Shown here piece by piece: positions 8,510 to 35,728 of a DNA stretch of 36,073 bases. A program made the translations under genes and the position numbers. The stretch spans positions 1-36,073 of the forward strand of contig JABDQA010000072.1 of assembly GCA_013042475.1 (NCBI GenBank), in the 5' to 3' direction. Positions within the stretch are counted from its first letter, which is position 1, and every line of letters starts with the position of its first letter. The DNA comes from Desulfofustis sp. Its GTDB lineage: Bacteria; Desulfobacterota; Desulfobulbia; Desulfobulbales; Desulfocapsaceae. The notes beneath the pieces were generated by a model that saw only the letters and a list, made by a program, of their open reading frames with translations, ran no database searches and was not told where the DNA came from.

Positions 8510-8533
8510 TTTTTTTTCCGGTAGGTGGCTGAA

Positions 8534-20624: not shown

Positions 20625-21182
20625 TCAATCATCGCTTACGCCATTTGGGTTCCCGTTTCTGAAAAAATCATCAACCACCGCCTGCTTCCACTGGGCTTCG
20701 ACCAGTTTCCAACCATCGTTTTCTTGCGCAAGAGTTATGTCGAACCAGTAGATATCTGCCTGGATCCGTCCGAGTATTGATCGATCTGAGATGGGCCGCG
20801 CGGTAAAGGCACCAAGTACTTTTGCCTGGATATGTTCTTCAGCGTTAACGGCCGAATCGAGATCTGTAAACAGATAAATTGACTTCGAGCTCCGTATGTA
20901 CGCTGCCGCAATGGAGACGACATCGCCTGCCGTTCTGTTCTGAGAATCCCGGTATTGGGGGGAAATGAGTTTCTTCAGCCCAAGGATGTCGCGCTCCTCA
21001 AATGCTTCCTCGCTCTCTCTGATGAACTGCGTGGCTATTTCTTCTGGAGTGGTTGGAGAATTGCAGGACACCGCCAGAAGGGGCAGAATAAACAGAAAAG
21101 CGACATAGGGCCTCAAGTAGAGAGCCGAAAGTATAATAGTCCCGATGAATTGAGCAGAGTTTTCGATATTACGGATAGACAT
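20625..21182 (-). CDS. putative lipoprotein, last gene of the flagellar run
   Basis: 185 residues from ATG 21182; the track's start is a TTG eight codons earlier with no ribosome site. A hydrophobic stretch ends in LPLLAVSC, an acceptable lipobox with Cys at position 40. The long N-region (about 23 residues before the core) is unusual, so the true start could be further in, for example at the TTG before RPYVAF. The mature part is ~145 residues and looks like a compact alpha+beta domain, perhaps NTF2/SnoaL-like ('AWW'-type core absent). It starts 40 bp after the PilZ gene's stop and may belong to the same transcript. Function unknown. Confidence 0.65.
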   Translation of the reverse strand: MSIRNIENSAQFIGTIILSALYLRPYVAFLFILPLLAVSCNSPTTPEEIATQFIRESEEAFEERDILGLKKLISPQYRDSQNRTAGDVVSIAAAYIRSSKSIYLFTDLDSAVNAEEHIQAKVLGAFTARPISDRSILGRIQADIYWFDITLAQENDGWKLVEAQWKQAVVDDFFRNGNPNGVSDD

Positions 21183-21222
21183 GGCGCATAGATGAGAACC
21201 GAACAAGAAGAAATGTCACCGT

Positions 21223-21912
21223 TTAATTTGTCACATCCACCTTGAGTCGAAGCAAGCGGCGTTGAATTTCAAAACAGCAGCCCATGATTCGGTCTCTGTC
21301 TTCCGAGGAAATATCCTGGAAATGATAGGCGGTCTCCCATTGGTTCTCATCAATCTGGTGGCTCCTTACCGTTCGGGCCAGCAACTTGATAATTTGAGAA
21401 TTACGCTCGGGAAGGGAAATCTCCAAACGGACGAGATCATCTTCTGGGGGGTTTTCGGAAAAACTGGCAAGAATACCATTTCCACTTATGTCGATAGTCT
21501 TACCTCTGATTGACCAGGCGCGACCCTGGCTGTCAAAAAATTCAGGTTGAAATGATTTGGATATCACCTCAGTAACGGCGTCAACCCTGAAAAATTCGCG
21601 CATTTGCGCATGACTGATTAGTTCTTCCGCTTTCATTTCCAATGCTTGGGGTGTTGCTAAGGCAATCGAGGCTTCCATTGAAATATTGGGTCCGCCGAAA
21701 TCGACATTAACGAGGCAATTTTTACCAAGATCGAGGTTCTCTAAAGGCAGGATTCCCGGTTGAAAGCGCAGTTCAAATCTCGGAGGGGAGACCAATTTGT
21801 AGACCGCCTGAGTCCGGTAACGTTGATTGTTGTTCTTGATCGGCAGGTAAATTCTAACCGGTTTGAGATCCGGTATATCTCTCAAAGGTGATAAGTTGTC
21901 CATAAAGCGCAT
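21223..21912 (-). CDS. PilZ-domain c-di-GMP receptor (YcgR-like)
   Basis: 229 residues with a beta-rich N-terminal domain (about 15-100) and a C-terminal PilZ domain (about 104-225). Both c-di-GMP-binding motifs are intact: RxxxR as REFFR (Arg105, Arg109) and D-x-S-x-x-G as DISGNG (141-146). The two-domain form matches YcgR/FlgZ-type flagellar brakes, which bind the motor switch or stator when c-di-GMP is high. Its place behind fliM, fliN and flhG supports that role. It starts 64 bp after flhG on the same strand. Confidence 0.85.
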   Translation of the reverse strand: MRFMDNLSPLRDIPDLKPVRIYLPIKNNNQRYRTQAVYKLVSPPRFELRFQPGILPLENLDLGKNCLVNVDFGGPNISMEASIALATPQALEMKAEELISHAQMREFFRVDAVTEVISKSFQPEFFDSQGRAWSIRGKTIDISGNGILASFSENPPEDDLVRLEISLPERNSQIIKLLARTVRSHQIDENQWETAYHFQDISSEDRDRIMGCCFEIQRRLLRLKVDVTN

Positions 21913-21976: not shown

Positions 21977-22807
21977 TCAGCTCACATCTGTTTGTACCAG
22001 CTGCTTCCAAAAAAACTGAACGCTGCCTTTTGGATATCGTCGGGTGACCATGATTGCCAGGCGCTCCGCAAGAGCATTAAAAGAAGCAGCCGAGCTGGAG
22101 TTTGGAAACAGTTCTACAATAGCTTGCTGCTTTCTTATGGCTTCAGTCATCTGCTGGTCAGTGGGTATGGAGCCCAAATAGTCAATAGAGAAATCAAGAT
22201 AGCGATTCGATACGATGCTTAATTTTCGATATACATCCAGGGCTTCATCCTCGTGTGCGACCAAATTTACCACGAGATTAAAATGCTTTTCATGATACCT
22301 GGTTGAAAGCAGTTTCATAAGGGCATATACGTCGGTGATTGCCGTTGGATCCGGTGTCGTCACCAGAATGATCTCCTGGGCGGCGGTATTGAAATAGGTT
22401 ACGTTTTCCGAAATTCCTGCTTCGGTATCAATAAGCAGGTAGTCAAAATTAATTTTCAGAGAATCGAGACCGTCGAGTAATTTAAGCTTTTGGTCGCTTT
22501 CGAGCTGGATAAAAGACTGCAAACCTGAACCCGCGGGTAAAATGTGAATGTCATATGGGCCTTTTACCATGATGGATTCCAGGTCTGCTTCACCTGAGAA
22601 AAAATGATTTAGATTGTAGGCTGGGGTGAGTCCAAATACTACGTCTATATTTGCCAGACCAAGATCGGCATCGAGAATAAGCACTTTGCTTCCCGCTCTG
22701 GCGAGACAGATACCAATGTTGGAAACCACAGCAGTCTTCCCGACGCCGCCTTTTCCACTGGTTACCGAAATAACTTTGGTGGTCAGATTTGGGTGACCAG
22801 TTGTCAT
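21977..22807 (-). CDS. flhG: FlhG (FleN/YlxH), MinD-like flagellar number ATPase
   Basis: 276 residues of the ParA/MinD family. The deviant Walker A is KGGVGKT (19-25), switch I is DADLGLANIDVVFG, and Walker B is LLIDTEAG. The C-terminal part (about 245-276) could hold the membrane-targeting helix. FlhG limits flagellar number and positions assembly by acting on the GTPase FlhF and on FleQ-type regulators. The N-terminal DQAxxLR helix that activates FlhF in polar-flagellate FlhG is not visible, and a stop lies ten codons before the ATG with no intervening start. flhF is not in the window. Confidence 0.88.
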   Translation of the reverse strand: MTTGHPNLTTKVISVTSGKGGVGKTAVVSNIGICLARAGSKVLILDADLGLANIDVVFGLTPAYNLNHFFSGEADLESIMVKGPYDIHILPAGSGLQSFIQLESDQKLKLLDGLDSLKINFDYLLIDTEAGISENVTYFNTAAQEIILVTTPDPTAITDVYALMKLLSTRYHEKHFNLVVNLVAHEDEALDVYRKLSIVSNRYLDFSIDYLGSIPTDQQMTEAIRKQQAIVELFPNSSSAASFNALAERLAIMVTRRYPKGSVQFFWKQLVQTDVS

Positions 22808-22932: not shown

Positions 22933-23322
22933 TCAACCTAGTTTCTCAATTCGGTCGCTGGCACTGATAACTTCAGTCAGCTTGATACCAAATTTATCTC
23001 CGACCAGCACCGGTTTTCCTTTGGCGATCAATCTGGAATTTACATAAAGATCAAGCGGCTCATCGGCAGATTTATCGAGCTCGATAATCTGGCCAGTTCC
23101 CATTTCTAGAAGATCCTTGAGAAGCAGTTTACAACGCCCGACCTCTACCGAGATCTGAAGAGGGACATCGTATAAAAACTGGAGTCCTCGACTTTGAGAA
23201 GCATCTTCGGGCGCGGACATCTCACCTGGCGTTGCCGGGTCATCAAAGCTCTCTTCGAGGAGATCTCTCAATTCTTCCGGGTCGGGACGGGGATTTTTTT
23301 GTGGGGTATCGGTCGGATTCAT
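22933..23322 (-). CDS. fliN: FliN, C-ring switch protein
   Basis: 129 residues: a Pro/Asp/Glu-rich N-terminal tail (1-~45) and a SpoA domain (about 50-125) with 'YDVPLQISVEVGRCKLLLKDLL' and IELDKSADEPLDLYVN, the FliN hallmark. FliN forms the base of the cytoplasmic C ring and binds FliH. GAGGAA precedes the ATG. It lies 16 bp after fliM. Confidence 0.93.
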   Translation of the reverse strand: MNPTDTPQKNPRPDPEELRDLLEESFDDPATPGEMSAPEDASQSRGLQFLYDVPLQISVEVGRCKLLLKDLLEMGTGQIIELDKSADEPLDLYVNSRLIAKGKPVLVGDKFGIKLTEVISASDRIEKLG

Positions 23323-23338: not shown

Positions 23339-24325
23339 CTACTGGTATGCATTTAATATTTTTACATTTTTGTTGTGATTCTGTTGTCCGGGAAGGCCTG
23401 AGAATTTGGGAACTCCTTCCACAAGGATTTCAACGGAACTGTCAGGATCATGCGGTATGGGCAGTATGTCGCCTACGCTGAGATCCAATATCTGTTGAAT
23501 GCTGAGGTCTATTGAACAAGTTTGTGCTATAACCGTTACTGGCGTGGCGGTAAGACCTTTCCTGATGTTTTCCGGCCAGTTCTTGTTTTCAAATTTTTGC
23601 AGTTGGGTGAGTTTTTCAAGTGAAGAGCGGTGGGGTACGAGCGAATCAATGGGAAATACTAGTTCGAGTACACCGGCGTCCTCCTCGATTACAGCCTGAA
23701 ACCGATAAATTGCCATTAACGCATCTGATGATGCAAAGGAATGCACACGCTCTTCACTTGCAGTATCGATCACCCTGCTGCGGACTTGCAATATAGGGAT
23801 AAAAGCTTGTTCTATGGCCCGGCAGGCAAGCTCCATTGAGGCTTTGAGAAGACTCAATTCGAGTCTGGTGGGTGACCGATCTGACGGGTTGCTGGCCGCA
23901 CCGCTGAAACCACCGAGCAATTTTTCAAGCACTAAAAACCAGAGATGAGAGTCATAGTTCAGCAGGCAGCCGCTGCTCAGAGGTTTCAGGCTGAGTAAAC
24001 CTGTGGTCTTATGGGGGTCTTGATCCGGTAGATAAGCGCTGAACGGCAGCTGATGGAAATCAATAATTTCAAAGGAGACTCTCTTCTGTAGATAGTGGGA
24101 TAAGGATCTGCCAAATGAGCTGCGGAACCGATCGATAATAAGATTGAAATTGGGTATATCCAATTTCTTTTGTGAATCTGCTGGTAGCTCAAGAAGGTTG
24201 ATCTCGACATGCGCTGAAATGATTTCCTGAGCTCTGGCAGGCTCTGGTCCGGGATAAACCGCTCCATCTTTTTGCAGAGTACGCAGGAGATCAGCGATTT
24301 CCTGTTTTGAAAGAATTGGCTCCAT
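23339..24325 (-). CDS. fliM: FliM, C-ring switch protein
   Basis: 328 residues, the usual size. The N-terminal CheY-P-binding peptide is recognisable as ILSKQEIADLL (4-14). The central CheC-like domain and the C-terminal SpoA domain ('LSVGDILPIPHDPDSSVEILVEG') follow. FliM links FliG to FliN and sets rotation direction. The retained CheY-binding peptide implies a chemotaxis-controlled motor, although no che genes are in the window. Confidence 0.92.
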   Translation of the reverse strand: MEPILSKQEIADLLRTLQKDGAVYPGPEPARAQEIISAHVEINLLELPADSQKKLDIPNFNLIIDRFRSSFGRSLSHYLQKRVSFEIIDFHQLPFSAYLPDQDPHKTTGLLSLKPLSSGCLLNYDSHLWFLVLEKLLGGFSGAASNPSDRSPTRLELSLLKASMELACRAIEQAFIPILQVRSRVIDTASEERVHSFASSDALMAIYRFQAVIEEDAGVLELVFPIDSLVPHRSSLEKLTQLQKFENKNWPENIRKGLTATPVTVIAQTCSIDLSIQQILDLSVGDILPIPHDPDSSVEILVEGVPKFSGLPGQQNHNKNVKILNAYQ

Positions 24326-24352: not shown

Positions 24353-24847
24353 CTATTGAACCACGAAATCCGTAAAATATATCGCCACGGCCTCTCCTTT
24401 TGTCAGCATTTCATTGAGTTCGATGAGCAGCTCTGCTTTAAGCTGCTTCTTACCGTGGACATCGTACAGCTCCTCGAAGGTTTTACTGCTTGCCAGCATG
24501 AGAATGGCATCTCTGATTTTAGGCATGCCTTTATTGATCTCATCATATGCAGCCTGGTTTGACAACTCTATTGTCATTGAGGTCCTGAGATAATGACTGT
24601 TGTCATCGCTGATAATGTTGACAATAAACTCACGTATATCAACCATAGGCCCCATGTTCACCTCAGAGTCAACCTGTGGCCGCGCTGATTCTGATGGACC
24701 AGATACGCTTTTTTTGCTGGTGCTGCTGTAATAGAGCCATCCGCCAATAATTGAACCGGCGACCAGGAGAAGGACCACCACAAATCCTATGGCTTGGTTG
24801 CGGACTGCACCGGTAACGTCTGGATTGTATTTTTTGTTGGCAGCCAT
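24353..24847 (-). CDS. fliL: FliL, stator-associated membrane protein
   Basis: 164 residues: a short cytoplasmic start, one membrane helix (about 20-41, 'AIGFVVVLLLVAGSIIGGWL'), a Ser/Pro-rich linker and a periplasmic domain with VDIREFIVNI, 'HYLRTSMTIEL' and a C-terminal IYFTDFVVQ. FliL rings surround stators and increase torque or stability. AGGA precedes the ATG by 7 nt. The position directly after motB is typical of a stator-linked FliL. Confidence 0.92.
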   Translation of the reverse strand: MAANKKYNPDVTGAVRNQAIGFVVVLLLVAGSIIGGWLYYSSTSKKSVSGPSESARPQVDSEVNMGPMVDIREFIVNIISDDNSHYLRTSMTIELSNQAAYDEINKGMPKIRDAILMLASSKTFEELYDVHGKKQLKAELLIELNEMLTKGEAVAIYFTDFVVQ

Positions 24848-24887: not shown

Positions 24888-25676
24888 TTACAGAGGAATT
24901 GTACTTTTCTGTTCTTTTGCAGAAGTTGTGCCTGATGCGAAGTCAGCTTTAAGAATGATATCGACGCGTCGGTTTAGGTGGCTTTTACTGTCGCCTGGGT
25001 CCTTCGAAACTGGTCGTTCAGCCCCATACCCGACTGCTGACATCCGTTCGACACCTAACATTTTTTGCTCAACCAGGTGACGCAGTACGCTTACTGCTCG
25101 AGCAGTTGAGAGTTCCCAGCTGTTCTCAAACTGGCTCGACTCGACTGCTGACTTATCGGCGTGACCTTCGATGCGCACATCAATTGGGTGATGCCGGATG
25201 CTTTCGGCAATGGTCTCAAGAAAGGCATGTGAGCCTGATCTTAAAGCTGCACTGCCAGGGCTGAAAAGTAGCGTTTCATGGATACGCACAAGCAGGGTGT
25301 CTGAATCGGGAGTAAAAGTTTCAATAGCTGAAACCTCACCATCGAGTTTTTCAAACCTAAGCTTCAAGGAGTGTTGCAAATTGTTTATGAGTGAACGGCT
25401 ATAAGGGTCGAGTTCCGCGGAAGGAGCTGGAAAGACGGGAATAATTACATCCGTGCCCGGTGGCTGCTGACGAATTCCGAAGGCGCCCTTCAATGAATTC
25501 GAGGCTTCATTAAACCGAACCGGATCCAGGTCGGCCATGGACATTAGCAGAACAAAGAAGGTCAAAAGCAGGGTGATGAGATCTGAGTAAGTGATCAGCC
25601 AGGGGGGAAAGCGAATTCCCCAGGCTCCATACCTGCGCTCATCTGGCTGTTGCAAATTGTCGTCACCTTTCAACAT
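24888..25676 (-). CDS. motB: MotB/PomB stator subunit
   Basis: 262 residues. The single membrane helix (about 29-48) carries the ion-binding aspartate in TYSDLITLLLTFFVLLMS (Asp32). A plug/linker region follows, then an OmpA-like peptidoglycan-binding domain (about 125-245) with RIEGHADKSAV and NRRVDI. The YSDL...FFVLLMS pattern is closer to PomB than to E. coli MotB, hinting at sodium drive, but ion choice cannot be fixed from this alone. It lies 13 bp after motA. Confidence 0.93.
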   Translation of the reverse strand: MLKGDDNLQQPDERRYGAWGIRFPPWLITYSDLITLLLTFFVLLMSMADLDPVRFNEASNSLKGAFGIRQQPPGTDVIIPVFPAPSAELDPYSRSLINNLQHSLKLRFEKLDGEVSAIETFTPDSDTLLVRIHETLLFSPGSAALRSGSHAFLETIAESIRHHPIDVRIEGHADKSAVESSQFENSWELSTARAVSVLRHLVEQKMLGVERMSAVGYGAERPVSKDPGDSKSHLNRRVDIILKADFASGTTSAKEQKSTIPL

Positions 25677-25689
25677 GGCGTCGCACTTA

Positions 25690-26457
25690 TCATTGCTCGA
25701 AGGTAGTGGCCCTCAGTTTCGGAGAGATATATGCGTGCAGCTTCTGTTCTATTATCCGAGGGTTTTCTCCTGATAAAATGGACTGCATGCCCTCTATAAT
25801 CAAAGTTTTAACCAGTATCTCCGAATCTGATCGATTGCGCAGTTTACCGGCAACCGGCAAACAGATTACGTTGGCGATCACCGCCCCATAAAAGGTGGTG
25901 AGCAGGGCGACAGCCATGGCGGGACCGATTCGCGACGGATCATTCAGATTCTGCAGCATTTGTACAAGACCAATGAGGGTCCCCACCATCCCCATGGCCG
26001 GTGCATAGGTGCCAATGGAGATGAAGATGCTGGCTCCTTTCTGGTGGCGCTGCTTGATATAGTCAATTTCAGTGGTGAGCATGGCCCCCAGCGTTGTCGG
26101 TTCCTGCCCGTCGATTGCCATCTGTACGCTTCTGGCCAGAAACTCGTCTTCTATGGAATCCAGTTCGCCCTGAAGACCGAGTATCCCTTCCTTTCTCGCC
26201 TTGTTAGCAAATCCCATTATTTGGATGATGTACTCATTTATAGGGGTCTCGCGGTGAAAGACCGCCTTTTGGGCGACCTTGAATGCTTCGAGAAGATCCT
26301 TGAACGGATAGTGAATGAAAGCTACTCCGGTGGTTCCGCCAAGAACGATTAGCAGGGCAGGGATATTGAAAAAAATAGTGATCGGACTTCCGTGGAGAAT
26401 AGCCGCAAGCATCAAGCCAAACGCAGCAATCACTCCTAAAATCGTTGACAGATCCAA
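25690..26457 (-). CDS. motA: MotA/PomA stator subunit
   Basis: 255 residues with four membrane helices. Conserved parts: 'IVLGGTTGVAFIHYPF', the cytoplasmic loop, 'GTYAPAMGMVGTLIGLVQML' and 'GPAMAVALLTTFYGAVIANV', the last two lining the channel. The short length and these motifs are PomA-like. MotA5MotB2 complexes convert ion flow to rotation. GAGAGGGAAG lies about 10 nt upstream. A 221-bp gap separates it from the gene before, with no strong promoter I could recognise. Confidence 0.95.
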   Translation of the reverse strand: MDLSTILGVIAAFGLMLAAILHGSPITIFFNIPALLIVLGGTTGVAFIHYPFKDLLEAFKVAQKAVFHRETPINEYIIQIMGFANKARKEGILGLQGELDSIEDEFLARSVQMAIDGQEPTTLGAMLTTEIDYIKQRHQKGASIFISIGTYAPAMGMVGTLIGLVQMLQNLNDPSRIGPAMAVALLTTFYGAVIANVICLPVAGKLRNRSDSEILVKTLIIEGMQSILSGENPRIIEQKLHAYISPKLRATTFEQ

Positions 26458-26678: not shown

Positions 26679-27218
26679 TTATTGGGCTGGCATTTCGAGA
26701 AACAATTTGCTTATTTCGGCAGCCTGCTGTCGACTCAGCCCATCCAGAATTTTAGCTGCAGATCTGGGTTTCATTGAAGCCAGGATGGCGGCAGCAACCT
26801 GCCGGTCGAGATCTGAGACAGCCTCGGCAGCCAAGAGCGGATCCATGTTTTCGTAGATTTTTCCGAGGTTTTCGATTCGCTGCTGCTCATCTCTCTGTTT
26901 CTCTTCCAACAATGCTTCAAGAACTTTTTTCTGAGCTTCCATTTGAGCAAGTTTACTATCTATTTCAGTAAGCTTTGCATCGATTTCAGCTTTCAGTTTC
27001 TCGAGTCTGGCTTCCTCAAGGACAAGTGCTTTCTTTTCATCGATTAGGCTATCCTGGTCTTCAATAATACGCACATGAAGCCGCCGTTCTTCAACGGAGG
27101 AGAATTCACTGTTGGGAGGGGATTCCTGGGCAGCACCGCTAGATGTCTGGTAACCGAGGGAGGCAAACAGCGAGATGGCCAAGATGATATGAAGAGCTGT
27201 AGGGTTATGATATGACAT
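26679..27218 (-). CDS. MotE-like periplasmic coiled-coil protein with MgtE-N-type domain
   Basis: 179 residues from ATG 27218; the track's start at 27248 is ten codons upstream, within fliG. An N-terminal signal or anchor (about 8-25, 'ALHIILAISLFASLGY') is followed by a charged coiled coil (about 50-105) and a C-terminal helical domain (about 110-178) with 'DPLLAAEAVSDLDRQVAAAI' and 'PRSAAKILDGLSRQQAAEI', the MgtE-N pattern. This is the layout of alphaproteobacterial MotE, an export chaperone for the stator partner MotC, and of related proteins near stators. It overlaps the fliG end by 14 nt and precedes motA, so a stator or motor role is likely. Confidence 0.75.
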   Translation of the reverse strand: MSYHNPTALHIILAISLFASLGYQTSSGAAQESPPNSEFSSVEERRLHVRIIEDQDSLIDEKKALVLEEARLEKLKAEIDAKLTEIDSKLAQMEAQKKVLEALLEEKQRDEQQRIENLGKIYENMDPLLAAEAVSDLDRQVAAAILASMKPRSAAKILDGLSRQQAAEISKLFLEMPAQ

Positions 27219-28206
27219 GGTCACTGGCATGATCAGCCGATAGAACACTTTCTTCCTGAAGCCTCATGGCTGTTTTTACGATGGCCTGCTGCATAGCCTC
27301 AACATCTGAAAGCCTCATGGGGCCCAGAGCCTCGAGATCGTCGCGGATCATTTCTGCGGCGCGAGGTGACATGTTTGAAAAAAACCTCTGTTTCAGCTCA
27401 TCGGAAGCGGTTTTAAGGGCCAGTGCCAGAGAATCTTTATTGATTCGTCGAAGAATCGATTGCAGGATGCGGTCATCGAGGTCGCCCAAGGCTTCAAAGG
27501 TAAACATTTTCTTTTTGATTTTCTGAACCAGCTCATTATCCGTCTCTTCGAGCTTTCCGAGAATAGTGGTGTTGAGGGTGTGTTTCATTTTGCTCAACAA
27601 TTTTACCGCCTGATCAAACCCTGCTATTTCCTGCTGTGTACCATGCCCCATCTTGCCTATCTCCTCAAGGAGGTAAGCTTCAAGAGTTTCGAGAACCTCT
27701 TGAGAAACATGTTCGAGCTTGGCAATCCTGTAAATGATGTCTGCCTGCATTTCGTCAGGCAATAATGAAACCACTTCTGAAGCATAGCTCGAATCCTGGG
27801 TAGAGAGAATTAGGGCAATGGTTTGAGGATGTTCTCCCTGAATGATATCTGCCACCAGTTGTGGGTTAATGGCTGACAGCATCCCCAAAGGTTTCGATTC
27901 CACGCTGAGGTGCTGATTCAATAGTGATTCTGTGCGCTCTTTTGAGTGGGATGCAATGATCGAGTTTCTGGCAAACTCATCGCCACTGATAAAGAGGCCT
28001 TCAGATTTGTGCTGGTCTTCGATAAATCGCTGTAGAACAGAATTTTTCATGGACAGTGGAATATGATCAATAGCGGTCATTGACCAGGCAATGCGCTGGA
28101 TTTCTTCGTCGGTGAGCTGATTGAATACCCGGGCCGTTGTATCTTCCCCAAGACACATGAGCAGCACTGCGGCTCTCTGTACACCTGATATTCTGTCGCT
28201 GCTCAT
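27205..28206 (-). CDS. fliG: FliG, motor switch/rotor protein
   Basis: 333 residues, the standard length. The N-terminal FliF-binding domain begins 'SGVQRAAVLLMCLGED'. The middle domain has 'GEHPQTIALILS' (the EHPQ motif), and the C-terminal torque domain contains 'FEALGDLDDRILQSILRRI' and RFFSNMSPRAAEMIRDD with the charged residues facing MotA. CAGGAGG, overlapping the fliF stop, is the ribosome site; the gap to fliF is three bases. Confidence 0.95.
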   Translation of the reverse strand: MSSDRISGVQRAAVLLMCLGEDTTARVFNQLTDEEIQRIAWSMTAIDHIPLSMKNSVLQRFIEDQHKSEGLFISGDEFARNSIIASHSKERTESLLNQHLSVESKPLGMLSAINPQLVADIIQGEHPQTIALILSTQDSSYASEVVSLLPDEMQADIIYRIAKLEHVSQEVLETLEAYLLEEIGKMGHGTQQEIAGFDQAVKLLSKMKHTLNTTILGKLEETDNELVQKIKKKMFTFEALGDLDDRILQSILRRINKDSLALALKTASDELKQRFFSNMSPRAAEMIRDDLEALGPMRLSDVEAMQQAIVKTAMRLQEESVLSADHASDHVIS

Positions 28207-28209
28207 CGC

Positions 28210-29742
28210 TCAGGCCTCCTGAATCCATCTTTTGATGATATGTGCAGCCGCAAGTGGGTTGCTGTGTACTTCATTTTTCAGTTTGACAGCAATGTCTTCT
28301 TCTTGCCGATCAGGCCCATGGTCTACACTATTGCCTTCTTCAGGGGGCGGACTGTCGCTGCCGGTCAAATCCATTTCTGCGCGCAGTAGCCCAATTATTG
28401 GTTTGAGCAGGAGCAAGTAGAAGAGTAAGAATATAGACAATATCAGGATGATTTTGCCAACCGGAATCAGGTCGAAGATTTCATAAAGCGGCGATATCTT
28501 CGCCGGGCTTTGTGGCACATTCAGACGGTCTGCTGGCATACGTCTCAAATTGATGATATCTCCTCTTTCGGGTTTGAGAGAGAGTACACCAGCAACCAGC
28601 GATCGAATTGCTTCAAGTTCTTCGTCGCTGCGCGGTTGAAAAGAAACGGTGCCATCGCCTCCAATCCTTTTTTCATCTGCTACCAGAATGGTAACCGATA
28701 TTTGTTTGAGTGCGCCGACAGGGTTGATTGTTTTACTGGTCGTTTTGCTTATCTCGTAATCGACCTTTGAAGAAGTGGTAACCGATGATCGGTAACGAGA
28801 GCCTGCATTCTGTGAAGAAAGATCTTCAGATCCGGCATCGGGTAACGGTTGCCGCTCAATTTGTTCGCTCTTCACCACTGCGTCATCCGGGTCATAACTC
28901 TCAGAAGTGGTCTCATTGCGGGAGAAATCAAGCGAGGCTGATATTTTTATCAAAGTTTGACCTTTGCCGATCATGGCATCCACAAGATCTTGAGCTTTTC
29001 TCTCGAGGTTGCGCTCCACTGAGGTTTGGTAAGACAAGGTAGAATCAGGAAAGAGTAAAGCGTCCCTTAATCTGGATTTACCGGATAGAAGATTACCTGA
29101 GCTGTCAAAAACTCTGACATTGCTTGATTCCAGGCTTGTAACAGACGTTGCAACCAGGTGAATCACGGTTTGCAGCTGATCTGCAGTCAGGGGGCGGCCC
29201 GGAGCAAGGGAGAGCAGCACGGTCGCACCCGGTATGCTGTTTAGTGAAGAATCTTCCGGAGCAGACTCGAGATGTACTCGTGCCGAACGGATTTGATCCA
29301 GGGCAGACAAGGTACGGGATAATTCGTGCTGGATGACAATCCGGGGGTCTCCGCCAGTCAGTGATTGGAAGGTTGCCAGTGGTTGGCTGCCCACAAGATC
29401 ATTGCCGTTGTTAAAAGAGGGGAGCTTCTGCTTGGCCAATTCCAGTCTGGTCAAGTCTACGCTGTCTGCCGGTATATAAATGGATCGCTGTGCCGGGTTT
29501 TCTTTAAAGTTAATATCACTGAGTTTAAGAAAATTGCTGATGGCTAAATAATCTTCAGTGATCAAGTTGGCATAAAGCAGCCGGTATTCATCATCGTCAA
29601 TCAAGGTATGGAGGACGATCAATAACGCCAGTGCTACAATGATCAGCAGTCCACCGAACAGTGCCTTTCTCTTTGTTGTCCACTGCATAAACCGCTCTTT
29701 CAAATTTGAGAGCAGGGATGGGTGTCGTTGTTCATCAGCCAT
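28210..29742 (-). CDS. fliF: FliF, flagellar MS-ring protein
   Basis: 510 residues. Two membrane helices (about 28-46 and 428-447) flank the periplasmic ring-building region with 'YRLLYANLITEDYLAI', 'QHELSRTLSALDQIRSARVHL' and PGATVLLSL. The cytoplasmic FliG-binding tail ends NPLAAAHIIKRWIQEA. It forms the inner-membrane base of the flagellum. No Shine-Dalgarno site is obvious before the ATG, 70 bp after the preceding TPR gene. Confidence 0.96.
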   Translation of the reverse strand: MADEQRHPSLLSNLKERFMQWTTKRKALFGGLLIIVALALLIVLHTLIDDDEYRLLYANLITEDYLAISNFLKLSDINFKENPAQRSIYIPADSVDLTRLELAKQKLPSFNNGNDLVGSQPLATFQSLTGGDPRIVIQHELSRTLSALDQIRSARVHLESAPEDSSLNSIPGATVLLSLAPGRPLTADQLQTVIHLVATSVTSLESSNVRVFDSSGNLLSGKSRLRDALLFPDSTLSYQTSVERNLERKAQDLVDAMIGKGQTLIKISASLDFSRNETTSESYDPDDAVVKSEQIERQPLPDAGSEDLSSQNAGSRYRSSVTTSSKVDYEISKTTSKTINPVGALKQISVTILVADEKRIGGDGTVSFQPRSDEELEAIRSLVAGVLSLKPERGDIINLRRMPADRLNVPQSPAKISPLYEIFDLIPVGKIILILSIFLLFYLLLLKPIIGLLRAEMDLTGSDSPPPEEGNSVDHGPDRQEEDIAVKLKNEVHSNPLAAAHIIKRWIQEA

Positions 29743-29812: not shown

Positions 29813-32203
29813 TTACAGATTTGAAATCAGTTGACGATACCGTGAATCCTGTACTGCGAATCTGTGCCATGGATCACTGTCAGTTTTTTCGGCAAGAAAT
29901 AATCTATTTAGTTCTGAAATATGTTGTTTTCCGTGCCAGCCGGAAATTAGTACGATCCGGTGACGTGCAGTCCGGCGATATTTCTCCGTTTCAGCGAGCA
30001 GAACGAAGAGCTCCTCGCTTTTAGTGAATTCCCCCAGTTCATAGAGGCTTTCAGCAAGTATATAAATGGTGTCGGATGAGAACTCTTTTCTTTGTAATTG
30101 ATACACTGGGAGGAGTATGTCGGCGGCACTCTGGTACCGCCTTTTCTGAAAATTCAGTGTTGCACCAAGAAACCGAAAATCTAAGCGCTGCGGCAGGGGG
30201 ACGGGTAACAGCAGCAAGGCTTCATCTATCTGACCCACTGCATACATGCAGTCAAGCCTGAAGTAGAGAACATCAAGTTCATGCACTCCTTCCGGGTATC
30301 TATAGGTGTATTCAGAGGCCAAGTCCTCAACCAGGTGGTGAGCACCAAGGGCATGGGCGGTCCGAATTGTGGCAAAGAGTAGGTCTTCCCCGTAGAGACC
30401 GGTGGATCCGTTTTTCAGATAAAGAAATAGCTGCAGGGCTTCTGGATGCATGGCCAGCCTCTCAAACGCCAGACCGATATCAAATAAAAGGGCGTCATCG
30501 AGCCAGCCCTTCTCGAAAAGGGCACGATTCTGTTGAGCCAGGGCGATGGCTTCGATGTCCAGCCCTGCATCCAGGAGACGTTCAATTTCACTGGGAATGA
30601 GCTGAATAAGCAAGGCTTGGGCTTGATCTTGCAACTCGCCGCTCTGATAGGTTCTGAGCATCTTCTGTAACAATTCGATGCTTATGGATGGTTGTCCTTC
30701 AAGGAAAAGGACGAGTGCTTCTTTGAAAGTAGCCGACTCAGCGACAGCCCTGGACGCAGCTCTACCGGCGATTCGGCGAAACCACTGGCTTGCATTTTCT
30801 GCACACTCATCTTGTCTCAGCGCACAGATATCGGCCTGTTTCATCTCAGCCAGCAGCGCTGCCTCGGTCCCGGGGAAACGTTCAATTATCGTACCAAACT
30901 GAATCTCAGGGTTGACTGATAATTTTTCTGCTTTCAGTTCTGCCAGGGTGGCCAGATAGTGTGCAGATCCAGCTGTATTGAACTCATTGAGCATAGAGGC
31001 CAGGTCAAGATAGCAGCGTCTACTTTTATCATAAGCCTGCCGGTTGAAAATCATGGAGCAGTAGTGGTTGATGCTGAGGGGCTTAGCTGCCATGACTTCT
31101 GAGCCGTAGAACTTGTCGTAGGTGGCAAAGGCCTCGTCAAAACGTCCGGTCCCATAGGCATGATCAGCTCTACGCAATTCGACCGACTCGTGCAGTGATG
31201 GCGGAAAGTCTCCAAGGTCAAGAAGCTGGTTCATCTGCTCGTATTGTCCCGTAGCCAAATGAGTCTCAGCAATAGCAAACCTTACAAGGGGGATGAGAAG
31301 ATGGCGCGCCGGTAATCGATCAAGCAGTTTTGTGAGCCTGACCTGGGCGAGGTGAAATTTGTGTGTGCCTATTTCGATGAGCGCCGCAGCATAGACAGCA
31401 AGATTCCCCGCGTCGTCATATCCATAGGTATCGGCGAGGAGTTTGTATTGAGTGAGTGCGGCTTCAACGCTACCCAGCCTGAACAAAATATCGGCGTGGG
31501 TTATGGCGTAATATTTCCTCTCTTCTTCTTTGTTTATCGATTTAAGCTGCTTCTGGATCCGCCGCAGCGACTCGAACATATTTTGTTTGTCTAATTCTTC
31601 GATGATCGGCAAAATTGGGGCTTCACCTGAAGAGAGGAGGGACGTCAGGGGAAAAGGCGGAAATAGTGGTGCAGGATCAGGGGTGAGGATCGGAGTGTCT
31701 TCAAAATCGGCAAAAAAAGAGCGCCAGTTATTTTTATATGGCGTGAATGCAAGCGGGCTGATCAGGGTTTCCTGCCTCTGCTCCACAGGCACCATCAGGC
31801 CGAGACTCGATCCAAGCTCACGGAAGCTTCCGGTAAACCGATTTCCGGGTATCAGATCGATAATAAGGGTACTATCAGAAGTGCTGGAAATGGAAAGGCC
31901 CTGGGGGGCGTAACGGAAAAATATTGATAATCTGGTATCTTCTTGCTGCTGAACAACAAGTGTCTTGATTATGACATCATCGGGTTCCGGCTGAACCAGG
32001 AATTCCATTGCACGCGTGTCTATGAGGGTAAGATCAAGACGCCGGTCTGAAAGCCGCTCCTGGTAAAGCGGCAGCTCATCAAAATGAGCATAGATTTGAG
32101 TCGAGGTGGCTGACTCAGATGTTGAAATCCTGGTAAGCTGCGCACCTGACCCTTCACTTATTGAAACGATAAAAAAAAGCAATGTCAAAATTAGCGATCT
32201 CAT
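29813..32203 (-). CDS. large periplasmic protein: beta domain plus TPR superhelix, PflA-like architecture
   Basis: 796 residues. A signal peptide (1-~21, LILTLLFFIVSISEGSGA) is followed by a beta-rich, AMIN-like domain (about 22-125), a Pro-rich linker with LTPDPAPLFPPFPL (about 180-195), and a long array of helical hairpins (about 205-796) with TPR units such as 'LGSVEAALTQYKLLADTYG' and 'LYELGEFTKSEELFVLLAE'. No catalytic motif is seen. It is the first gene after a sigma-54 promoter and lies directly before fliF, in an operon that also holds the stator genes. Signal, beta domain, linker and TPR superhelix at ~790 residues match what is known of PflA, the periplasmic stator-scaffold protein of Campylobacter. 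Homology is not established; the gene structure is certain. Confidence 0.8.
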   Translation of the reverse strand: MRSLILTLLFFIVSISEGSGAQLTRISTSESATSTQIYAHFDELPLYQERLSDRRLDLTLIDTRAMEFLVQPEPDDVIIKTLVVQQQEDTRLSIFFRYAPQGLSISSTSDSTLIIDLIPGNRFTGSFRELGSSLGLMVPVEQRQETLISPLAFTPYKNNWRSFFADFEDTPILTPDPAPLFPPFPLTSLLSSGEAPILPIIEELDKQNMFESLRRIQKQLKSINKEEERKYYAITHADILFRLGSVEAALTQYKLLADTYGYDDAGNLAVYAAALIEIGTHKFHLAQVRLTKLLDRLPARHLLIPLVRFAIAETHLATGQYEQMNQLLDLGDFPPSLHESVELRRADHAYGTGRFDEAFATYDKFYGSEVMAAKPLSINHYCSMIFNRQAYDKSRRCYLDLASMLNEFNTAGSAHYLATLAELKAEKLSVNPEIQFGTIIERFPGTEAALLAEMKQADICALRQDECAENASQWFRRIAGRAASRAVAESATFKEALVLFLEGQPSISIELLQKMLRTYQSGELQDQAQALLIQLIPSEIERLLDAGLDIEAIALAQQNRALFEKGWLDDALLFDIGLAFERLAMHPEALQLFLYLKNGSTGLYGEDLLFATIRTAHALGAHHLVEDLASEYTYRYPEGVHELDVLYFRLDCMYAVGQIDEALLLLPVPLPQRLDFRFLGATLNFQKRRYQSAADILLPVYQLQRKEFSSDTIYILAESLYELGEFTKSEELFVLLAETEKYRRTARHRIVLISGWHGKQHISELNRLFLAEKTDSDPWHRFAVQDSRYRQLISNL

Positions 32204-32235: not shown

Positions 32236-32251
32236 TGCAATTATTGTTCCA
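32236..32251 (-). promoter_or_regulatory. sigma-54 promoter of the fli-mot operon
   Basis: On the minus strand: TGGAAC-AATAA-TTGCA, matching TGGCAC-N5-TTGCA in all but one base, with GG and GC exactly 10 bp apart. The start would fall near 32225, leaving a ~22-nt leader before the ATG at 32203. A sigma-54 activator of the FleQ type is encoded 2 kb away. Confidence 0.75.
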
Positions 32252-32498: not shown

Positions 32499-34223
32499 AT
32501 GCAAAGCACCATAGAACGACTCAGCATGGCAGCGTTTGCGCAGATAGAGAAAGAGGTCGGTGCGCTGATCGGCACTGATCTGGAGCTCTCATTAGTGTCG
32601 GCCTCCTTGACAAAGAAGCAGGGTTTTCTGGAGAATCAAGACGGCAGCAACAGTATCATCGGTTTGCAGTTGAGAGGACGATACGAGGGAGAGGGGTGTC
32701 TTGTAGTTGCGGAAGACTGTGCCGTTCGTCTGGCCGGCAAAATGCTCATGCTGCCATCGACCGAACTCAACGATATAATCTGTGAGGGCAACTATGCTGA
32801 TGAGGAGGAACTAAGCTACGCCTTTGATGATATAGCCAAATGTCTTGTAGTTGCTTTTTTAGATACTTTTCAACGCAGTTCAAACTTTATTTCAACTATT
32901 ACCTGCCAGAGCCAGAGATTTACCGAGGGCAGAAAAGAAGTGGCCGAAATTCTCAGTCACCTGTCTACGGATCAGACATACTACCAGGTGAGCGGTACGA
33001 TGACCCTGGCCGGCGTCACTACAAACACCTTGTCGCTGTTGCTGCCTGCTTTCGTTCTTGTCTGCAGTGAGCCTTTTAAAAAACACACAGGTCAGCAAGT
33101 TGTCACAAATTCGGTTACGTCTGATATCCAAAATCATGAACAGGCCGGACTTGTTTTAGGCGAAACTCCACTAACCATTATTGAAAACGAGAATGATCCG
33201 CTTCTTCCCCATCTGAGACCGGCACTGCAGAAAGAATTGTCAAATGTGCTGGGCATCACTGTTCAAGTAAGAGTAAAAGGCAGCTTTTCCGGCCCACTTT
33301 TTGAGTTAATCAGAGGGACCGATACCAGTCCCCAGCTGCGCAGCCGCATCACTATTTCAGGCCCTGGTCAGAATCACGGCTGGCTGATCACCACAACCAG
33401 TGATGCAATGAAGCTCGGTCTGCTGCTGACCGAGGGAACTCCCGGTCTAACGATACCCGGCTCTCTGGCGGGAGGTTTCAATGCTGATTGTCAGGATGGA
33501 TACCAAGAAGTCTGTTCAATTTTTATGGATGTGATCGATCTGGTCTGTAATGATTTGTCAGAAGATGATCTTTTCATGCAGAAGGACACCGATATAGAGG
33601 AAATCGATTTAAAAACTGAATCGGTTGATCGGATAGACGACAAAGAACAGACTTTTATGCTGACATTGCTTGAAATTGTAGCCGACACCATTGCGTGCGG
33701 CACCATGCATATTCTGCTTCCAATCGAATTGTATGAGACTCTCAAAACAGTTGAGCCTGATCGTTCGCTGGAAAGCATTGTGAGCCATGGACAGGAAGTG
33801 ATTGATGAAAAGCCAATCATTGACGCGTCGAACACTACCAGCCTGACGGAGCTATCTCATCATGCAGATGTGATTCTGCTAATTGAGGATTCACCAGCTT
33901 ACGGGCCTGAAATTTTAAACTCCTTTAAAGAAACTGGAATAAAAGCAGAGAGTATCTCACTGGCCGATGAGTTCAGCACAGCCGACATGGATTCGTATCT
34001 TGCTGTTCTTCTCGTGCAGGAAAGACTTGACGAGATCGGGCTTGGAGTAGTGATCAAAATTAAGTCGACATCATCAGTCCCCCTGCTTGTGGCCGCCTCA
34101 CTATGGACCCAAACCGATGTGATGAAAGCGTTGCGCTATGGCGTGGACGATATAATTATGCTCCCGGTGGAGAGCGATGAATTGCTGCGTAAGCTCAGAG
34201 GTAAAGAACCGCTGAGTGTCTGA
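32499..34223 (+). CDS. two CheC/CheX-like segments plus a pseudo-receiver domain
   Basis: 574 residues, no signal or membrane helix. Two segments (about 1-195 and 225-420) share a pattern seen in CheX/CheC/FliM-type folds: GCLVVAEDCAVRLAGKMLMLP with FDDIAKCLVVAFLDTF in the first, and GWLITTTSDAMKLGLLL with EVCSIFMDVIDLVCNDL in the second. The CheC/CheX phosphatase motif ExxN is not kept (DIAK and EVCS at the matching places), so CheY-P hydrolysis is doubtful. Residues 456-574 look like a response-regulator receiver ('VILLIEDSPAYGPEILNSF' ... YGVDDIIMLPVESDELL), but the phospho-accepting Asp, the Thr/Ser and the Lys are all replaced. The gene is divergent from the fli-mot operon and convergent with the fleQ-like gene. 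Probably a flagellar or signalling scaffold; function unknown. Confidence 0.75.
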   Translation: MQSTIERLSMAAFAQIEKEVGALIGTDLELSLVSASLTKKQGFLENQDGSNSIIGLQLRGRYEGEGCLVVAEDCAVRLAGKMLMLPSTELNDIICEGNYADEEELSYAFDDIAKCLVVAFLDTFQRSSNFISTITCQSQRFTEGRKEVAEILSHLSTDQTYYQVSGTMTLAGVTTNTLSLLLPAFVLVCSEPFKKHTGQQVVTNSVTSDIQNHEQAGLVLGETPLTIIENENDPLLPHLRPALQKELSNVLGITVQVRVKGSFSGPLFELIRGTDTSPQLRSRITISGPGQNHGWLITTTSDAMKLGLLLTEGTPGLTIPGSLAGGFNADCQDGYQEVCSIFMDVIDLVCNDLSEDDLFMQKDTDIEEIDLKTESVDRIDDKEQTFMLTLLEIVADTIACGTMHILLPIELYETLKTVEPDRSLESIVSHGQEVIDEKPIIDASNTTSLTELSHHADVILLIEDSPAYGPEILNSFKETGIKAESISLADEFSTADMDSYLAVLLVQERLDEIGLGVVIKIKSTSSVPLLVAASLWTQTDVMKALRYGVDDIIMLPVESDELLRKLRGKEPLSV

Positions 34224-34243: not shown

Positions 34244-35728
34244 TCATTCGTCCCACCTTCCGTCAATTTCTTTCTTTTTTATTTTTTCAAGAAGGGTGGT
34301 GCGCTTCAGGCACAGCATCCGGGAAGCCTCTTTCTTGTTTCCGGAAGTGAACTTCAGGGCTTTGATGATCAGATCTGTTTCGAATTCATTGATCAAATCG
34401 TTGAAATCGATCGGACCGTTTTGAAAATCGACAGACGGGGTGGGTGGAGTGGACAGGGAGAATAGAGCCGCCCGCTCTGCACTGATATCGTTTTCTGAAC
34501 GGTAGACTGGCGGATTTTGGCTGACCTGCAGCTCTACACCAGTCTCCCGATGGACGGTGAATTTTACTGGCAGGTGATGAGGGTAAATCCTTTTTCCGCT
34601 ATAGAGAATTGCCATGTGCTGAACTAGATTTTCAAGCTCCCTGACATTGCCACACCATGAGTGCTGACTGAGGATTTCCATGGATTCGGATGAAAAGACG
34701 ATCTTATCCCTGCCTCTATCGACAGTGTGGCGTTTTATAAACTCACTGAGCAGTAGCGGAATATCCTCTGATCGAGACCTCAGTGGCGGAACCTCGAGGG
34801 GAATTACACTTAAACGATAATAGAGATCCTCACGGAAGCGACCTTCTTTCACAAGTTCTTCCAGGTCACAATGGGTAGCTGCTACAATTCTGGTATTTAT
34901 CGGTGTTGCCCTGAGAGAACCCACCGGCTCGAACTCTCGTTCCTGAATTACTCTCAGCAATTTGGCCTGGAGGTTGGGTTTCATATCACCAATTTCATCG
35001 AGAAACAGGGTGCCGTTGTCGGCATATTGAATCCTTCCCGTTTTGTTCTGACCTGCCCCGGTGAATGAACCTTTAAGATGTCCAAAAAGCTCGCTTTCCA
35101 ATAATTCATCTGGGATTGCGGCGCAGTTTACCGGGACGAAATTGTGTTTGCGTCGACCGCTTTTCTGATGAATGGCCTTGGCCACAAGCTCTTTTCCCGT
35201 GCCTGATTCACCTCTTATCAAAACAGTTGAGTAGTCATCTTCAGCCACCCGTCTTATTATCTCGAACAAATCCTTCATCGCTCGACTTTTGCCGATGAAG
35301 CCTGAAATAGAAGATGTTTTAGGTTTTGAGTTGGGAGGTTGGTTTCTACCGTTGAGCAGAGTAAGACAATGGTTGACGCAGAAATTAAGCTCGGCAGGTT
35401 GAACGGGAAACGTGAGCTGGAAGAAAGGTCTACCGCTCAAATCCGCATGCAGGTGTCCTTGGGGTTGGTTGTCAACTAAAAGGATGATAGCCAGATTTTT
35501 GGACTCTGCACTGATTTCTTTCAGTAACTGACTGAGTGGATAACCCGATTTAATCCTGCTGTCCAGCAATAGAATTGCACAGGGTGCGCGGCGCAGTTCG
35601 ACGATCACCGCCTCAGCGTCAACCCGTTTTTGAATTATATCTGGAAAGCGGTTGGCGATAGTTTCGACGAGCGCGTCGCCATCAGACTGGTCGGCCAACG
35701 CAATAAGAATATTGATGGACTGGCTCAT
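34244..35728 (-). CDS. FleQ-like sigma-54-dependent transcription activator
   Basis: 494 residues. The N-terminal receiver-like domain (1-~120) keeps an Asp at the phosphorylation place (LLLDS, Asp56) but lacks the usual Thr and Lys, so it may not be phosphorylated, as in FleQ. The AAA+ domain (about 142-385) has Walker A GESGTGKE (173-180), the sigma-54 loop as GSFTGA (220-225, usually GAFTGA), Walker B LFLDEIGD, and 'REDLYYRLSVIPLEVPPLR'. The C-terminal Fis-type helix-turn-helix ends 'CLKRTTLLEKIKKKEI', close to FleQ. The LFRS c-di-GMP motif of Pseudomonas FleQ is not conserved before the AAA+ domain. It is the natural activator for the sigma-54 promoter at 32.24 kb. Confidence 0.88.
   Translation of the reverse strand: MSQSINILIALADQSDGDALVETIANRFPDIIQKRVDAEAVIVELRRAPCAILLLDSRIKSGYPLSQLLKEISAESKNLAIILLVDNQPQGHLHADLSGRPFFQLTFPVQPAELNFCVNHCLTLLNGRNQPPNSKPKTSSISGFIGKSRAMKDLFEIIRRVAEDDYSTVLIRGESGTGKELVAKAIHQKSGRRKHNFVPVNCAAIPDELLESELFGHLKGSFTGAGQNKTGRIQYADNGTLFLDEIGDMKPNLQAKLLRVIQEREFEPVGSLRATPINTRIVAATHCDLEELVKEGRFREDLYYRLSVIPLEVPPLRSRSEDIPLLLSEFIKRHTVDRGRDKIVFSSESMEILSQHSWCGNVRELENLVQHMAILYSGKRIYPHHLPVKFTVHRETGVELQVSQNPPVYRSENDISAERAALFSLSTPPTPSVDFQNGPIDFNDLINEFETDLIIKALKFTSGNKKEASRMLCLKRTTLLEKIKKKEIDGRWDE

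Follow-up and report, generated by a model that had tools for sequence, protein, structure and literature searches.

A PflA-like spoke protein heads an operon for a flagellar torque generator in a genus of Desulfocapsaceae that may run its motor without a propeller

The closest described counterparts of the protein considered here are the PflA spokes of Campylobacter and Helicobacter, in which a signal peptide, an AMIN-like beta-sandwich, a long linker and a superhelix of 16-17 TPR motifs follow one another over about 800 residues. Mature PflA spans residues 16-788, and its AMIN domain was so named for its likeness to PilQ (PMC11870540). In Campylobacter, the MotE homologue FlgY forms the E-ring and contacts the PflA spokes through a helix (PMC11870540, PMC13023049), whereas PflB is held by the PflA domain and linker (PMC12222027). 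The sequence of PflA is not conserved across phyla; a survey of 1,365 flagellated species places a TPR protein close to flagellar genes in about 52% of them and finds a FlgY homologue in 66% (PMC11870540), so that the view taken in an earlier, sequence-only reading of this DNA, that such scaffolds are described mainly from Campylobacterota, is outdated. Likewise, large periplasmic TPR proteins encoded in or near flagellar genes occur in Bdellovibrio (WP_011165745.1), in alphaproteobacteria (MotC/MotK and CC_2058) and in spirochaetes (FlcB), paired, where studied, with a MotE/FlbB homologue (PMC5758724, PMC13023049). They serve motors that drive flagella, and are likened to the present protein by description, not by sequence. 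As PflA-like proteins are already on record beside the flagellar genes of about half of the flagellated species, the pflA gene reported here adds a member to a published kind; what is new is that the operon of the genus encodes a whole torque generator with no detectable propeller genes.

The window, that is, the whole stretch of DNA analysed, covers 36,073 nucleotides of contig JABDQA010000072.1 of a Desulfofustis sp. genome (GCA_013042475.1). Its PflA-like open reading frame starts at an ATG, and full-length homologues of about 800 residues lie at the equivalent place in dozens of related genomes, which sets the frame beyond chance. These homologues measure 796-810 residues, have conserved starts and share 26-54% identity with the query. 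The AlphaFold2 model, built with 30 homologues (mean pLDDT 84 for the full-length protein), bears out the architecture proposed from the sequence: a signal helix, the signal peptide itself having been called by reading the sequence, is followed by nine strands (residues 21-118), a disordered stretch (residues 125-144), the linker at about 148-198 and some 18 helical hairpins (residues 199-795). The N-terminal domain modelled alone reaches a pLDDT of 96, and five linker positions (P150, Y156, W160, F184 and P185) are invariant among the 30 homologues. Pfam detects only weak TPR matches in this protein, and clear ones, down to 4e-12, in its relatives.

A fold search of the full model against 350,542 PDB chains placed at rank 1 a 773-residue chain, 9hmf_K, from the periplasmic scaffold of C. 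jejuni (E 4.5e-16, 837 alignment columns). Second came a TPR chain from an elongation complex of RNA polymerase II (E 6.4e-10), and the other large scaffold chain, 9hmf_L, was at rank 28. We take 9hmf_K to be PflA 16-788, since its length equals that of mature PflA in PMC11870540. The TM-score between the model and this chain is only 0.40, as is expected for two flexible solenoids that probably differ in domain orientation and curvature. The N-terminal domain resembled AmiC (TM 0.66), the PilQ B domain (TM 0.72) and, less closely, the N-terminal domain of PflA (9leq_A, TM 0.55), with E-values (1e-3 to 0.03) that must be called modest, because small heat-shock proteins also appear among the matches. 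A protein of the FlgT/MotY type, considered as another candidate, was rejected, neither being among the fold matches listed. On the other hand, sequence searches reached no PflA: the single protein and the profile of its N-terminal domain found no PflA or AMIN family match among PDB sequences, and the full profile retrieved generic TPR chains with no PflA among them. The lack of a sequence-level match and of a recognised PflB homologue counts against the PflA-type reading, which is supported by the fold, the domain order, the gene context, the co-occurrence with fliF and the linkage to an E-ring gene. Homology to Campylobacter PflA is likely, as judged from the predicted structure. The two share the order of parts, the length, the flagellar gene context and the E-ring partner (FlgY/MotE), and the long linker and superhelix of PflA correspond here to a conserved linker and about 18 hairpins. 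They differ in that the N-terminal fold is nearer to AmiC and PilQ than to that of PflA, that no PflB was noticed near the locus, and that the genomes of the genus show no flagellum genes.

Among 93 Desulfocapsaceae genomes, the pflA-like gene (E below 1e-20) and FliF occur together in 70 and are both missing in 17, with only three genomes showing the gene alone and three (G013, G042 and G105) FliF alone. The former three are 72-84% complete; among the latter, one (G042) has its FliF at a contig end, and one, the sister-genus genome G013, is a real absence of pflA. The gene lies directly before flgBC-fliE-fliF or before fliF, and the order in flagellated members is pflA-flgB-flgC-fliE-fliF-fliG-fliH-fliI-fliJ-motE. 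In most of the other families of the order examined, a protein of about 700 residues with a signal peptide and TPRs, but with no AMIN domain, is encoded upstream of flgB (eleven loci, L036 to L046). Its solenoid is co-linear from end to end with that of the PflA-like protein (hhalign probability 98.3, 551 columns), whereas the AMIN domain and the linker have no counterpart in this shorter form. The split of the FliG tree matches the two forms of the spoke gene, and the genus makes up a single clade (support 100/99) inside the flagella of Desulfocapsaceae type. Two loci of two other families (L047 in G068 and L048 in G050) carry a fliG, pflA and flgBC cluster of Desulfocapsaceae type and group there in the FliG tree, a pattern suggesting that the entire flagellar locus was transferred.

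All five genomes of the genus (drafts, 85-94% complete, four at 90% or more) share a single cluster, pflA-fliF-fliG-motE-motA-motB-fliL-fliM-fliN-flhG-PilZ, with the CheX-like and NtrC genes adjoining (Table 1). The sequence-only reading had rightly put pflA first in an operon with fliF, fliG, motA, motB and fliL, names that Pfam and NCBIfam uphold, and had left motE, fliM, fliN and flhG unmentioned. The same genes keep the same relative order in the Desulfocapsaceae genome G009, where fliHIJ, fliK, flgDE, fliOPQR, flhBA and others are interposed; the cluster of the genus is therefore a flagellar cluster from which the export, rod, hook and filament genes have been taken out. Just upstream of pflA, a sigma-54-like site with 1-3 mismatches, starting 27-70 nt before the start codon, is present in 26 of 26 regions, including those of all five genus genomes, and is better than in shuffled sequences (p <=0.04) in 24 of them. 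Across the window, sites with two mismatches are no commoner than chance, so that what is conserved is the position, and such a conserved site indicates that pflA leads the transcription unit. The NtrC-type activator is the likely regulator of the operon. The motE family scores against MgtE_N and collar_FlbB lie both below the curated cut-offs, and the true start of this gene is probably at about 27218. The motA product is 86-91% identical to those of three congeners and 80% to that of the fourth. As for the surroundings, the gene for a CheX/CheC-like protein with a degenerate receiver is kept beside pflA family-wide, although the genus has no CheA. A cell-wall hydrolase gene (PF07486, 19414-19779, minus strand), whose product is 82-95% identical in three congeners, lies near the end of the motor cluster, and an 865-residue fusion of a CobD-like aminotransferase with the cobyric acid synthase CobQ is encoded at 8525-11122 (plus strand). 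One of the five motor contigs, that of G002, stops inside the NtrC gene, and the longer ones run on into housekeeping genes.

Table 1. Motor operon of the window and its neighbours, with the basis of each assignment
Feature	Position	Strand	Basis
PflA-like periplasmic spoke protein, 796 aa	29813..32203	-	ORF, homologues, AlphaFold2 model, fold search, co-occurrence
AMIN-type beta-sandwich domain, residues 21-119	31847..32143	-	model pLDDT 96; Foldseek to AmiC, PilQ B domain, PflA N-domain
Conserved linker, residues 148-198, P..PY..W.SF and PFP motifs	31610..31762	-	30 homologues
TPR solenoid, ~18 hairpins, residues 199-796	29816..31609	-	AlphaFold2 model, Pfam
Sigma-54 (-24/-12) type promoter TGGAACAATAATTGCA of the operon, TGGAAC-N5-TTGCA	32236..32251	-	one mismatch to TGGCAC-N5-TTGCA; ~33 nt before ATG
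fliF, MS-ring, divergent; C-terminal FliG-binding motif kept	28210..29742	-	PF01514, PF08345; alignment
fliG, rotor; torque-helix charged residues kept	27205..28206	-	Pfam; alignment
motE/flgY/flbB, E-ring protein: signal sequence, coiled coil, MgtE_N/ARM-like head	26679..27248	-	MgtE_N 1e-4; NCBIfam collar_FlbB 1.5e-7; family-wide orthologues
motA, stator	25690..26457	-	PF01618 1.3e-30
motB, stator; retains the channel Asp (TYSDLITLLL) and the peptidoglycan-binding domain	24888..25676	-	Pfam; alignment
fliL	24353..24847	-	PF03748 6.7e-25
fliM; N-terminal ILSKQEIADLL motif kept	23339..24325	-	PF02154, PF01052; alignment
fliN	22933..23322	-	TIGR02480 1.1e-27
flhG/MinD-like ATPase	21977..22807	-	family matches; flhG position in G009
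PilZ protein	21223..21912	-	PF07238 4.7e-9
Short secreted protein or lipoprotein; its gene closes the conserved cluster	20625..21206	-	genus 46-67%, G009 39%
Divergent CheX/CheC-like and receiver-like protein, conserved neighbour	32499..34223	+	CheX 4.5e-8 in G009 orthologue; synteny
NtrC-type sigma-54 activator, likely operon regulator	34244..35728	-	PF00158 1e-70

An ordinary flagellum had been assumed for this organism, an assumption that does not agree with the genome or its congeners, in whose assemblies no genes for the export gate, rod, hook or filament were detected. PF00460, the family of rod and hook proteins, has no member in this genome (G000) or in the congener G001, and six in G009. 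A concatenated query of the FlhA, FliP, FlhB, FlgE, FlgI, FlgC, flagellin and FliG proteins of G009 found FliG alone in four genomes of the genus (G000, G001, G003 and G004), whereas four flagellated controls matched it throughout. With a second query (FlhF, FliD, FlgK, CheA, FliR and MotA), the genus genomes other than G002 returned MotA only, besides matches of about 29-34% in the GTPase region of FlhF, which resemble FtsY/Ffh. Taking the Pfam search for FlhA and the concatenated queries together, the export gate (FlhA, FliP, FlhB and FliR) is absent from the five genomes, as are FlhF, FliD and CheA by concatenated query, and FlgE, FlgC and FlgG gave no match in any of them.

A sister genus helps to decide to which module PflA belongs. 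The equivalent locus of G013 (L032, 6160-12000) retains fliF-fliG-fliL-fliM-fliN and has lost pflA, motE, motA and motB, with no MotB found anywhere in the genome, and that of a second genome, G028 (L070, 9792-13555), holds a FliG of 237 residues together with fliM, fliN and flhG; no remnants of pflA, motA or motB were seen at either locus. Since the genus keeps pflA with the stator and G013 lost it with the stator, PflA goes with the stator module. Presence of the gene in non-flagellated relatives, which had been expected to speak against a PflA-type protein, is literally what was found, yet it points the other way, because pflA is retained with stator and rotor and lost with the stator. Provided that the P- and L-ring genes are truly absent, the partner of the PflA linker in the genus cannot be either ring, and MotB, MotE, FliL, a second PflA or the peptidoglycan remain as candidates.

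The visible decay of the sister-genus loci is also what would be expected if flagella had been lost and the compact motor operon of the genus persisted with no function, slowly decaying, and FliF and FliM are indeed the least constrained of its motor genes. However, such a relic is unlikely. The ten structural and positioning motor genes are open in all five divergent genomes, which share one operon arrangement, and over such distances neutral genes would lose their open frames, which argues for purifying selection. Nei-Gojobori estimates for the three closest members, wherever dS allowed one, gave dN/dS values of about 0.04-0.24, which are rough because dS is near saturation (above 1): about 0.04 for motA, 0.09-0.10 for fliG, 0.10-0.16 for motB, 0.15-0.22 for fliF and pflA, and 0.20-0.24 for fliM, as compared to 0.10-0.13 for the housekeeping genes xseA, panC and cobB, so that motA is more constrained than the latter. 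The sigma-54 site is retained, and so are, by alignment, the channel Asp and peptidoglycan domain of MotB, the charged torque helix of FliG, the N-terminal motif of FliM and the C-terminal motif of FliF, which we take to be the functional determinants of these proteins; FliF, FliG, FliM, FliN, MotA and MotB, the set that defines a flagellar rotary motor, are all present with such residues. A decaying linker in the pflA of the genus was considered as well and rejected, as its core motifs are retained, at a conservation slightly below that of flagellated relatives.

It is also improbable, and rather more so than an unlikely relic, that these cells have an ordinary flagellum, its genes for export, rod, hook and filament being located in other parts of the genomes that the drafts do not cover. 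The described genus Desulfofustis, whose name is borne by one of the metagenome-assembled genomes, is listed as motile by flagella (PMC8497536), and a 5.7-kb contig of G002 carries flgI, flgN and a flgK-like gene. Nevertheless, FlgI, FlgK and flagellin-like matches are restricted to G002 within the genus, and the flagellar contigs of about 5 kb on which they lie are likely contamination, since their GC (0.478-0.485, 0.478 for the 5.7-kb contig) deviates from that of the motor contig (0.42), their FlgK has 974 residues and is unlike that of G009 (473 residues), and the reported contamination of G002 is 6%. Hook, P-ring and flagellin-like genes were noted on contigs C20 (L068) and C421 (L069) of this genome, both of deviating GC. 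Moreover, FlhA is absent by Pfam from the five genus genomes and from both sister-genus genomes, and present in 66 of the 67 other FliF-positive genomes, in one as a contig-edge fragment; the chance that five of six FlhA-less genomes among 72 would fall in the genus is about 4e-7. About a dozen further genes, CheA included, are missing too. Finally, a generic periplasmic TPR protein placed beside flagellar genes by happenstance is hardly credible, given that, common as TPR solenoids are and poorly as the single protein scores in Pfam, PflA is the top PDB match by six orders of magnitude and the gene co-occurs with FliF and is lost jointly with the stator.

The reading that we consider probable is that of a PflA-type spoke encoded in the operon of a propellerless motor, which would still be built and ion-driven, its torque being used inside the envelope. 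The sigma-54 operon, with pflA first, encodes the torque generator: stator, rotor rings, FliL, E-ring, spoke and FlhG. If the Campylobacter motor is a guide, the TPR solenoid would touch, with its inner, C-terminal end, the MotE E-ring that surrounds the FliF ring. At the outer end, the AMIN domain and the linker would grip a partner or the cell wall close to the stators, thereby placing MotAB units at fixed positions around a FliG-FliM-FliN rotor. Such a motor is most likely still assembled and driven by ions, and its torque, or a load-dependent assembly of its stators, could be used in the cell envelope, for instance in surface movement or surface sensing. Counted against a propellerless motor are the absence of CheA although FliM keeps a CheY-type motif, the draft state of the assemblies, and the faster evolution of FliF and FliM as compared to FliG and MotA. 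The fuller proposal, that a complete, scaffolded, MotAB-driven rotary motor with neither axle nor propeller has taken on a new cellular output in a genus of sulfate reducers, seems to us evenly balanced.

Agl-Glt of Myxococcus and GldLM of Bacteroidota, both motors of the envelope that use MotAB-like stators in the absence of a flagellum, lack a FliF-FliG-FliM-FliN rotor. By contrast, the stator encoded here is a true MotAB and the rotor genes are present. The so-called half motors, with rotor genes and no filament genes in non-motile species, are alike in that rotor genes are retained with no filament, but the survey describing them includes any species with one rotor gene or more (PMC12199754), whereas the genus has the full set of rotor, stator, E-ring and spoke in one intact operon. 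Among the papers searched on cable bacteria, Desulfofustis and motors lacking a filament, none was found to describe such an operon. Reduced flagella are known in which export is retained and torque is lost, and a flagellar torque generator put to new use within the envelope would, if true, be their mirror image. If real, the motor would be a separable module with a natural parts list (MotA, MotB, FliL, MotE, PflA, FliF, FliG, FliM, FliN and FlhG), PflA would be placed with the stator and not with the axial structure, and the cells of this genus may run a motor without a propeller.
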